Positions 60,729 to 64,000 of a DNA stretch of 64,000 bases are shown piece by piece. The notes beneath the pieces were generated by a model. It saw nothing but the letters and a program-made list of their open reading frames with translations. It had not been told where the DNA came from and did not search any database. The position numbers and the translations under genes are program-made. Source of the stretch: Fuerstiella sp. (GTDB lineage Bacteria; Planctomycetota; Planctomycetia; Planctomycetales; Planctomycetaceae); NCBI GenBank assembly GCA_022447225.1, contig JAKVAZ010000006.1:62001-126000 (forward strand). Reading direction: 5' to 3'. Position 1 is the first letter of the stretch. Each line of letters opens with the position of its first letter.

Positions 60729-61055
60729 ACAGCGTTCGTTTCGCTGTTCCCGGATCGACTGCTGTGCTCACACTGGTTGTTCGGCGAACAGCGACAATGG
60801 TATCCGGTCAGCTTTCCCGCACGGGCACACAGTTTCAGCCCCGCCGATGAGGAACAGATTGTTCCTCAATGCCTCCCGTCAGCCAGACTGCTCCGGACTG
60901 GTTCCTGCTCACTTGCAGCTGAAAAGAGGTAGGCAGAATCTGCGACGGGACAACTCAACCACTCATGTATTCGTGCGCTGAATTCATCGACAGGTTTCAT
61001 CCCGATTGGATTCCGGGTATTGTCCAGCAACACCAATCAGGAAAGTGAGTTTTAC
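60729..61055. other. Intergenic region before the transporter gene
   Basis: 327 bp, including a TTG-started extension of the transporter frame from 61020. No gene or clear control element is seen. Confidence 0.4.
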
Positions 61056-62795
61056 ATGACCGACAACACAACCTCGTCAGCAACGGACATTCCCTGGCCC
61101 GGTTCAAAGGAAATGCCTCAATGGACTTCGAATGAACTGATCGATGCCCCGGTGTTCACAAAAAAGAATTGGTTCGCCCTGCTGGGCCCGGGCCTGATCC
61201 TTGGTGGTGCGGCAATCGGTGGGGGCGAATGGCTTGTCGGGCCCAAGGTCACAGCCCTGTATGGTGGTTCGCTGTTGTGGCTGGCAACGCTCAGCATTCT
61301 GGGACAGGTGATCTACAACATCGAAATCAGCCGCTATACGCTGTATACCGGTGAACCGATTTTCACCGGAAAGTTCCGAACCATGCCCGGCCCAAAATTC
61401 TGGGTTTTTGCCTATCTATTCTTCGACTTTGGATCTGTTTTTCCGTACCTGGCCGCCAACGCGGCGACACCGGTGGCAACGTTGCTTAAGGGGGGAATCG
61501 TACCGGATCCCGAACACGTCGATTCCGATTTCTGGCTGATGAAGGGACTCGGCTACCTGATTTTTATTGGAGCGCTGATTCCGCTGCTGTTTGGCGGAAA
61601 AATCTACCGTTCACTGAAGGCCGTCATGACCTTCAAACTGATCGTCGTGTTCAGCTTCCTGTTGTTTCTGGCATTCGGTTATTCGAATCGCGGAACATGG
61701 GCCGAAATTGCCGTCGGATTCGTCAAATTTGGCAGCGTTCCGGTAGAGGCCGGTGAGGATACCAACGGCAACGGCGTCCTCGACTCGGGAGAAGATTTTG
61801 ATCTCGACGGCAGACTGGATGTAATCGAACCGGTCAAATCGCGTGATGAATCAGGGAAGATCACGGATTATGAAGACGTCGACGGTGACGGTAAACGGGA
61901 TGGTGTCAATGTGGCAAACATCTTTGTGTCGGTCATCAACGGCAGAGGGATGCCTGATATTGACTTTACCATGGTCGGATTTATCGCGGCCCTCGCTGCA
62001 ATCGCGGGATCCGGGGGACTTTCCAATACTCCAACCAGTAACTATACGCGAGATCAGGGCTGGGGAATGGGACATCATGTCGGAGCCATTCCCAGCGCAA
62101 TTGGTGGTCATGATATTTCGCTGTCACACGTAGGATGTGTTTTCGAAATTTCCGAGGAGTCGATGCCGCGATGGCGGAAGTGGTACAAACACGTGTGCCG
62201 CGATCAACTGGTTGTGTGGCTTCCTGCCTGCTTTGTGGGCCTGGCACTTCCTGCGATGCTGTCCATTGATTTTTTGGATCGTGGCACACAGGCCGGCAGT
62301 AACTGGACAATGGCGGTCATGACCGCCGAGGGCGTACAGGAGACCGTCACAAATCAGTCCGGTGCCGGCCTGGGCAGCTTCTGCTGGTTTATGACTATTC
62401 TCTGCGGCTTTCTGGTACTGGCCCCGACAATGTCCACATCGGCAGACGGAATTATTCGACGCTGGGTCGACGTGTTCTGGACCAGCAGTAAACGCCTGAG
62501 GGCAATGGATGCGCGACATATCAAAGTCGTGTATTTCAAAGTTTTGCTGGGCTATGCGGTTTTCGGTTGCGTCATGCTGTCGCTCAATCCGGGAGACTTA
62601 ATTACCTACGCAACAATGTTCTTTAACATTGCCCTTGGCTTCAGTTGCTGGCACACACTGGTGATCAATGTCACGCTGCTGCCGAAGCCGCTGCGCCCCG
62701 GCTGGTTCGTTCGCACGGCCCTGTCAGTGGCAGGAGCTTACTACATGATGCTGGGAACTTTCGCTATCGCACAGACGACCGGTCTCCTGAAGTAA
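61056..62795 (+). CDS. Nramp-like membrane transporter with calcium-type loops in a soluble insert
   Basis: About 579 residues from the ATG at 61056, which has GTGAG 6 bp upstream; a TTG at 61020 is open too. At least ten hydrophobic segments resemble the Nramp/APC fold, starting LLGPGLILGGAAIGGGEWL. The usual DPGN of helix 1 reads GGGE and the MPH of helix 6 is replaced by GGLSNTP, so classical Mn/Fe binding is not expected. Between helices an insert (61750-61905) holds DTNGNGVLDSGED, DLDGRLD and DVDGDGKRDG, EF-hand/dockerin-type Ca loops. The substrate is unknown. Confidence 0.8.
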   Translation: MTDNTTSSATDIPWPGSKEMPQWTSNELIDAPVFTKKNWFALLGPGLILGGAAIGGGEWLVGPKVTALYGGSLLWLATLSILGQVIYNIEISRYTLYTGEPIFTGKFRTMPGPKFWVFAYLFFDFGSVFPYLAANAATPVATLLKGGIVPDPEHVDSDFWLMKGLGYLIFIGALIPLLFGGKIYRSLKAVMTFKLIVVFSFLLFLAFGYSNRGTWAEIAVGFVKFGSVPVEAGEDTNGNGVLDSGEDFDLDGRLDVIEPVKSRDESGKITDYEDVDGDGKRDGVNVANIFVSVINGRGMPDIDFTMVGFIAALAAIAGSGGLSNTPTSNYTRDQGWGMGHHVGAIPSAIGGHDISLSHVGCVFEISEESMPRWRKWYKHVCRDQLVVWLPACFVGLALPAMLSIDFLDRGTQAGSNWTMAVMTAEGVQETVTNQSGAGLGSFCWFMTILCGFLVLAPTMSTSADGIIRRWVDVFWTSSKRLRAMDARHIKVVYFKVLLGYAVFGCVMLSLNPGDLITYATMFFNIALGFSCWHTLVINVTLLPKPLRPGWFVRTALSVAGAYYMMLGTFAIAQTTGLLK

Positions 62796-63341
62796 CGTAT
62801 TCGCTCTCTGCAGAATCGATCGATCGTTTAACGATTGTATTTCGTGGAGCTACTGTTCCTGAGTCCCCGACAGGTTTACAACATGCCCCCGGTAATAGAG
62901 ACCACGCTTTTTGTGAGCCCATCCGGTTTGGCCGGTGGACGATGCGGCTCGCGACCGGACACATCGGATCCGATCGGCAGGCAGAAAGCTTCGTGATCTC
63001 CGGCAACCGGATCAGACGATCGCGATTTACTGCAGCACCCGGATGCTGTTACGGAACCTACTCGTTGGTTTGTCCATGTTCGAAATTTACCAACGTGCCC
63101 GTACTGCTGGCGCTGGTGTTCACAATACCTCAGAAATCTCAATTTCGAAATCACCTCAGTTCATGGATAGAGAATTAACCGTTCTCTGTCGTCAAAACCA
63201 TTCTGTTACCAAAACCACTGCAACGTCATTACTGCAACCAAGTGAAACTTTTCTCATACAGATTTCTTCTGTGGCTGTCGAGTGGCCGCACCACGATCCT
63301 GTGTAAACTCTTTCTGTACTCAATCCCTCAACGAGTTGACC
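62796..63341. other. Intergenic region before the last gene
   Basis: 546 bp. It starts with copy 2 of the 17-bp inverted repeat and a short ATCGTT-T-AACGAT palindrome; the rest has no supported gene. Confidence 0.4.
62813..62829 (-). repeat. 17-bp repeat, copy 2
   Basis: GAATCGATCGATCGTTT is the exact reverse complement of 56206-56222 and lies 18 bp past the transporter stop. Confidence 0.7.
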
Positions 63342-64000
63342 ATGCTGCCCGCAATGATAATGAGCCTGACACTGACTGCCGGTCTTTCAGCGATTCCGGC
63401 AGTTCGATCTGTACCCGATACGACTGCAGGTGAGCAGACGAGGTTTGGCGGTGTGAAATGTGAAGGCGACTATCAACATCATCTGCAGGGAGTCTGTACC
63501 AATCAACGCGATTCCATTTACTGGTCGTTCACAACAGTCCTGGTCAAAACAGATCGCAATGGCACAGTCAGGAAGAGTCTGCCGGTGGCAAATCATCACG
63601 GCGATCTTTGTTTTCATAAAGGCAAACTGTATGCCGCCGTAAATCTGGGACGATTCAATGATCCGGACGGTAACGCTGATTCATGGGTCTACGTTTACGA
63701 CGCGGACACCCTGCAGGAAACGGCAAAACACCGGACACCGGAAGTGTTCCATGGTGCCGGCGGCATTGGTGCCATGCAGGGTGAATTTTATGTCGTGGGA
63801 GGCCTCCCGGACGGGGTTGAGCAAAATTACGTCTACCGGTATGACTCACAGTTTCACTTTAAACGGAAACACGTCATCAGGAGTGGCTGGACAGAACTGG
63901 GAATACAGACGGCCACATTTCACCACGGCAGCTGGTGGTTTGGCTGCTACGGCACACCGAAAATCCTGTTGAAAACCGATTCCGGTTTCCGGATGCAGGG
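63342..64000 (+). CDS. Secreted beta-propeller-like protein, 5' part
   Basis: The frame is open from the ATG at 63342 to the end of the window (219 codons and two bases), so the gene continues outside. A hydrophobic leader (MLPAMIMSLTLTAGLSA) suggests export. Repeating strand pairs follow: HHLQGVCTNQRDSIYWSFTT, HGDLCFHKGKLYAAVNLG, ADSWVYVYDADTL, GAMQGEFYVVGGLP and NYVYRYDS. These read like blades of a beta-propeller of the sort seen in planctomycete secreted proteins. No catalytic motif is visible in the part present. The call is by pattern only. Confidence 0.75.
   Translation, partial: MLPAMIMSLTLTAGLSAIPAVRSVPDTTAGEQTRFGGVKCEGDYQHHLQGVCTNQRDSIYWSFTTVLVKTDRNGTVRKSLPVANHHGDLCFHKGKLYAAVNLGRFNDPDGNADSWVYVYDADTLQETAKHRTPEVFHGAGGIGAMQGEFYVVGGLPDGVEQNYVYRYDSQFHFKRKHVIRSGWTELGIQTATFHHGSWWFGCYGTPKILLKTDSGFRMQ

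Follow-up and report, generated by a model that had tools for sequence, protein, structure and literature searches.

A planctomycete Nramp-related transporter with GGGE in TM1 and a predicted extracytoplasmic insert of calcium-type loops

Introduction

The window analysed here, a 64,000-nucleotide stretch of DNA from the planctomycete Fuerstiella sp., contains the gene of a membrane protein that resembles Nramp transporters without their metal-site motifs and carries acidic, calcium-type loops, raising the question of what such a protein transports and what the loops do for it. According to the accessible part of PMC12873925, Nramp-related proteins lacking DPGN and MPH are paraphyletic, lie outside the canonical Nramps and vary in the residues that occupy the two motif positions; NRMT-like transporters fall within this wider group, and the proteins beyond the canonical clades are largely uncharacterised. 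An earlier note on this DNA had described the protein as an Nramp-like transporter that lost its metal-site motifs and gained DxDxDG-type loops in a soluble insert, and had suggested another substrate and a gating that may sense calcium.

The gene and its family

61056..62795, + strand: gene of a GGGE-type Nramp-related transporter, 579 aa, 11 predicted TM helices (from the ORF, NCBIfam and the structural model)

The open reading frame starts with an ATG at 61056 and its stop codon ends at 62795, giving a product of 579 aa; further upstream, at 61020, there is a TTG in the same frame. The protein matches the NCBIfam model Nramp_1 (NF037982) at 3.2e-36 and 125.4 bits, above the curated cut-off of 50, with a best stretch at residues 292-527 that starts past the insert, and this family model is silent on a calcium-type insert. 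All 13 members of set A2 match NF037982 at E <= 0.01. The Pfam model Nramp (PF01566) gave no match to the window protein at E values up to 1 and matched one of the 13 members of set A2, at E 0.0096. Searching the PDB by sequence returned weak matches only; the top one (E 0.041) was to a biofilm protein that has loops of a similar kind. The contigs that match the transporter come from Planctomycetota. When the search was enlarged, the transporter profile matched in 114 of 170 genomes from the family at E <= 1e-90 and in 18 of 392 across the phylum at E <= 1e-60; G002, a third genome of the window's own genus, has no match. Viral contigs gave 21 pattern matches and no relative.

The AlphaFold2 model, built from 10 sequences, is of middling confidence (pLDDT 65.6, pTM 0.68), with pLDDT below 50 at residues 321-361 and over the greater part of the insert. 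Its top Foldseek match is DraNramp (8e5s, E 2.9e-07), and structural matches by VIA include BfraNramp (10ky_A; Z 25.7, rmsd 3.0, 361 residues), DraNramp (Z 24.7), EleNRMT (7qia_A; Z 24.2) and the YcsG model (9a52_A; Z 21.9); LAT-type amino-acid transporters rank next after the Nramp-type structures, with Z about 21. The Nramp-type fold found by both searches thus bears out the description of the protein as Nramp-like. It is best explained as a secondary transporter that belongs to the Nramp-related group and has an 11-TM LeuT fold, not as a canonical Nramp.

The 11-TM LeuT fold is common to the window protein and canonical Nramp/MntH/SLC11 transporters (BfraNramp 10ky, DraNramp 8e5s), from which it differs by having neither DPGN nor MPH, no Pfam Nramp match and an added insert of EF-type loops. 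As an Nramp fold without DPGN and MPH, it fits the Nramp-related group as defined in the accessible part of PMC12873925. EleNRMT and the NRMT-like Mg2+ transporters resemble it in fold and likewise lack the canonical motifs, whereas TM1 of EleNRMT reads NDAGG instead of GGGE. YcsG/MntG/PxpT are Nramp-related and non-canonical like the window protein (PMC12873925, accessible part), and the accessible portions of their descriptions mention no such insert.

Pocket motifs in TM1 and TM6

61218..61229, + strand: GGGE, residues 55-58 of TM1, in the place of DPGN (alignments)
62004..62027, + strand: AGSGGLSN, TM6 residues 317-324, in the place of GATVMPHN (MAFFT alignment)

TM1 residues 54-59 (IGGGEW) pair with IDPGNW of BfraNramp, and GGGE falls on DPGN in three alignments, two of which include canonical Nramps of planctomycetes. 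MPH is absent, and when distantly related sequences were aligned with MAFFT, TM6 GLSN sat on MPHN; in the same alignment, the canonical TM3 Glu becomes Ala and the TM10 Gln becomes Thr. Because they rest on a single MAFFT alignment of distant sequences, these TM6, TM3 and TM10 pairings are less sure. Profile-profile alignment with canonical Nramps covered only TM1-TM2, at a probability of 16. Within the GGGE clade, E58 and N324 are each kept in 51 of 51 rows.

Further Nramp-type relatives in the window's genome have GSGE (L002-L004) or GGGS (L006) in TM1, and canonical DPGN/MPH Nramps are present in other planctomycetes (L094-L097). In three of these canonical Nramps (L094, L095 and L096, ORFs of 662-679 aa), the C-terminal part resembles a universal stress protein domain by eye.

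A quick family tree of 33 rows picked by hand, of which the GGGE clade contributed 17 and some have long branches, unites the GGGE rows in one branch (SH-aLRT 100) apart from the canonical, NRMT-like and GPGS rows. The nearest rows to this branch are the long-branched GSGE rows, and EleNRMT pairs with L098 on a separate branch outside it, as far as a quick tree of 33 chosen rows with long branches can place it. Motif loss in a single protein is ruled out, as the replacement is clade-wide. The two motif claims of the earlier note, GGGE in place of DPGN and a missing MPH, are both supported by the alignments; the wording that metal-site motifs were "lost" is not supported, given that E58 occupies its position in all 51 clade rows. 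Since GGGE is clade-wide and Nramp-related proteins are paraphyletic to the canonical ones, ancestral absence is likelier than loss, and the metal motifs were probably never present. GGGE is the hallmark of a clade from planctomycetes within the Nramp-related proteins, a paraphyletic assemblage that had been recognised before.

Calcium-type loops ahead of TM6

61746..61919, + strand: predicted extracytoplasmic TM5-TM6 insert, residues 231-288, bounds as for the dN/dS count (topology)
61758..61793, + strand: EF-type loop 1, DTNGNGVLDSGE, residues 235-246, with ligand positions 1, 3, 5, 9 and 12 filled
61794..61829, + strand: EF-type loop 2, DFDLDGRLDVIE, residues 247-258, abutting loop 1
61875..61910, + strand: loop 3, DVDGDGKRDGVN, residues 274-285, partial, with no acidic residue at position 12

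Hydropathy shows 11 peaks in the window protein. With helix ends assigned by us from the AlphaFold2 model, the predicted inside loops hold 23 K+R and 14 D+E, and the predicted outside loops 13 K+R and 29 D+E. The TM5-TM6 loop alone contributes 21 D+E versus 9 K+R; because the outside loops still count 4 K+R and 8 D+E without it, the orientation does not depend on the insert. This charge bias predicts an extracytoplasmic insert, facing the outside of the membrane. A cytoplasmic or membrane-buried insert is disfavoured by both the charge bias and the fold. The insert thus appears to be soluble as claimed, with the topology placing it outside the membrane, not within it.

Three loops of the form Dx[DN]x[DN]Gxx[DE] start at residues 235, 247 and 274; in loop 3, position 12 is N, not E or D. 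Shuffling rules out a chance acidic run: none of 20,000 whole-protein shuffles and none of 20,000 insert-only shuffles held three or more loops, with means of 0.0016 and 0.0189 loops per shuffle, respectively. The three DxDxDG-type loops described earlier are present, except that the second was read out of register as DLDGRLD. The ligand positions retain an intact EF set, so that by their sequence the loops should be able to chelate. Like the 12-residue loops of EF-hands, dockerins and thrombospondin type 3 repeats, loops 1 and 2 fill positions 1, 3, 5, 9 and 12; unlike EF-hands, they have no helix-loop-helix pair and sit within a transporter loop. There are no residues between loops 1 and 2, so the helices that flank the loops in an EF-hand pair could not be accommodated. 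An AlphaFold2 model of the insert alone reached a pLDDT of 50.5, too poor for a fold search. In literature searches of open-licence PubMed Central, no Nramp-type protein was reported to have an insert of this kind, and the details of a calcium-type loop insert in an Nramp-type transporter are new as far as these searches tell.

Distribution and evolution of the loops

After near-identical copies were merged, at least two strict loops were counted in 27 rows of a first set of 54 homologues and one in three; strict-loop arrays reach seven per transporter, and other relatives have none. In an enlarged set, likewise merged and comprising 91 rows (two of 93 were dropped, as they did not span both flanks), at least two pattern matches occur in 42 rows, one in 23 and none in 26. 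Regular-expression counts may overlap, as in L169 and L170, and the loop classes on the tree therefore also use region length. All 91 homologues span the site, and a loop is present in 65 of them and absent from 26.

Selection by nothing but a region length of at least 35 aa left 67 of the 91 rows, and D-x-N occurs at one shared offset in 65 of these. Loop 1 positions 1 and 3 are fixed by construction in this D-x-N search; in these 65 rows, position 5 is always D or N, position 9 always D or E and position 12 always E or D, while positions 2, 4, 7 and 10 vary. The two exceptions are a degenerate loop (L158) and an unrelated insert (L079), and none of the 24 shorter regions (<35 aa) has a loop. 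The insert of L079 (genome G391), a basal relative, comprises 157 residues at the same TM5-TM6 site and lacks calcium-type loops. In genus g34, the loop of some single-loop members ends in D at position 12 (DLNGDGKFDAED); six relatives (L176, L177, L178, L180, L181 and L182) combine a single loop with this replacement of E by D. The form DxNGDGxxDxxD seen in single-loop relatives resembles dockerin loops.

The presence of loops requires nine changes on a quick tree of the 91 rows built with the insert excluded, where the state "none" needs at least seven changes on branches with SH-aLRT >= 95; on an earlier, careful tree of 54 rows, the multi-loop state needs eight changes, six of them forced. 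Both a single origin followed by repeated loss and repeated gain fit these sequence-based histories. Copy number can change between close relatives: the cores of L008 and L014 are 97.1% identical, and their regions measure 89 and 137 residues, 48 apart. Between the window and L007, dN/dS is 0.042 in the core and 0.014 in the insert, the latter from 15 synonymous differences and one nonsynonymous difference. For L008 versus L014, the corresponding values are 0.028 in the core and 0.187 over the aligned insert codons of a gap-rich alignment, so that constraint on the insert is not uniform.

Genomic context

In the neighbourhood survey, the transporter ORF lay within 59 of 67 contexts, and none of the neighbours in these 59 points to a substrate. 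In 8 of the 59, the gene immediately upstream, on the transporter's strand, encodes a universal stress protein (PF00582); a MotA/ExbB-like group occurs nearby in 15-16, and a protein of about 1,380 aa, without a match in Pfam, NCBIfam or PADLOC, in 20. A recurrent set of neighbours (e.g., in L048, L054, L056, L057 and L216) joins the protein of about 1,380 aa with the MotA/ExbB-like protein and two coiled-coil proteins. Compared with defence systems, the MotA/ExbB group gave weak ZorA-type matches only (top 7.4e-09). In the window, an LRR-type protein lies upstream, and a MobA-like gene and a LarA-N-domain gene are also neighbours. A Fuerstiella relative has a second, loop-free GGGE transporter gene directly downstream (L007:7917-9503; L063:8203-9789; Nramp_1 at 1e-46). 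This second gene has no blastn match within the window, where about 560 other bases (about 62795-63354) take its place.

A search of the window's own genome with the insert found two other places, in ORFs of 2166 and 1783 aa. The sites are G000:C16:33116-33331 (L115/L117) and G000:C3:212446-213882 (L116/L118/L119/L121). These giant ORFs carry tandem EF-type 12-mers, six in a row in one of them, and their array scores above the whole-sequence thresholds of three Pfam models, EF-hand_1, EF-hand_5 and DUF7151 (for EF-hand_1 on one array, 27.4 versus a cut-off of 25.4 bits).

Discussion

The finding described in the earlier note is real and sharper than first stated, and the protein is a variant of a known transporter kind, not a new kind. 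The reading favoured here, for which we regard the chances as evenly divided, is that the loops, loaded with Ca2+, form a structural cap over the outer gate of an Nramp-related transporter. In the pocket, TM1 is rich in glycine and has a single invariant carboxylate (E58), and for this reason the substrate should differ from dehydrated Mn2+ or Fe2+, being either a divalent cation that keeps more of its hydration shell or a solute resembling an amino acid. In the periplasm or the outside medium, the 12-residue loops would hold Ca2+ most of the time, and the ion would stiffen a flexible acidic hairpin beside TM6a into a rigid cap that may protect or steady the outer gate, of which TM6a forms part. 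Ca2+ would then be a constitutive structural ligand rather than a signal. The number of loops would drift because, as we propose, the TM5-TM6 loop tolerates the gain and loss of 12-residue units, and the 26 loop-free homologues among 91 imply that the cap is dispensable for transport in general. The accessible part of PMC3123361 describes Dx[DN]xDG motifs as mostly extracytoplasmic.

Regarding the substrate, an amino-acid-like or other organic solute instead of a metal, as claimed for PxpT/YcsG and 5-oxoproline, is a possibility that we take seriously while leaning against it. A GSG motif is a feature of APC amino-acid transporters, and the glycine-rich TM1 of the GGGE and GSGE proteins resembles it; LAT-type chains also reach Z about 21. 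Deletion of pxpT in C. glutamicum stopped growth on 5-oxoproline, according to the accessible part of PMC13274462. However, that of PMC10448178 reports YcsG instead as an Mn2+ importer, Nramps are top-ranked in the fold searches and the neighbourhood offers no clear catabolic partner. As far as the accessible part of PMC4072509 goes, an Nramp-related protein of A. capsulatum is likely an Mn2+ transporter, and others are Mg2+ transporters.

Other readings of the loops draw on the same observations. TM6a is a moving part of LeuT-fold gates, and the position of the loops immediately ahead of it, together with ligand positions that all 65 of 65 sequences of loop 1 retain in full, would suit a gate in which Ca2+ on the loops alters TM6a movement, so that outside Ca2+ switches transport on or off. 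Such switching appears improbable: the 26 loop-free homologues of 91 and the roughly nine changes in loop presence along the tree speak against a core role in sensing, and very different copy numbers at 97% core identity would be odd for a coupled gate. Moreover, seawater Ca2+ is near 10 mM and likely saturating, and the named relatives are marine according to their record titles. The excess of acidic residues in the TM5-TM6 loop (21 D+E versus 9 K+R), arrays of up to seven strict loops and a family named for divalent metal transport might instead indicate an antenna that gathers divalent cations at the pore mouth and feeds the transporter. We consider this the most doubtful proposal, as 26 of 91 orthologues do without loops, high-affinity EF loops in seawater would keep their Ca2+ and not pass it on, and metal is only a putative substrate.

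The same 12-mers in two giant ORFs, the unstable copy number and the multiple losses are what would be expected if a 12-residue repeat common in outer proteins of these bacteria had entered the exposed loop once and then grown and shrunk there as a near-neutral passenger with little effect on transport. Taken as a whole, this scenario is unlikely without being far-fetched, since each of the 65 sequences of loop 1 retains all five ligand positions while positions 2, 4, 7 and 10 vary, and since the dN/dS of the insert is 0.014 between the window and L007. A bolder proposal, which we rate as a long shot in its entirety, is that the outer-gate loop may be a modular metal-binding device, a portable 12-residue EF unit, also found in unrelated giant proteins of the same genome, that would have been inserted at a single precise site ahead of TM6a and multiplied or deleted there, with loop number tuning gating or cation supply.

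The clade shows short Ca-loop units multiplying within a loop of a membrane protein. The substrates of Nramp-related proteins bear on the origin of metal specificity in the LeuT fold. The GGGE clade also constitutes a natural series of one transporter with 0, 1, 3 or more calcium-type loops at one site, so that orthologues can be compared to test how a metal-binding loop outside the membrane affects transport.
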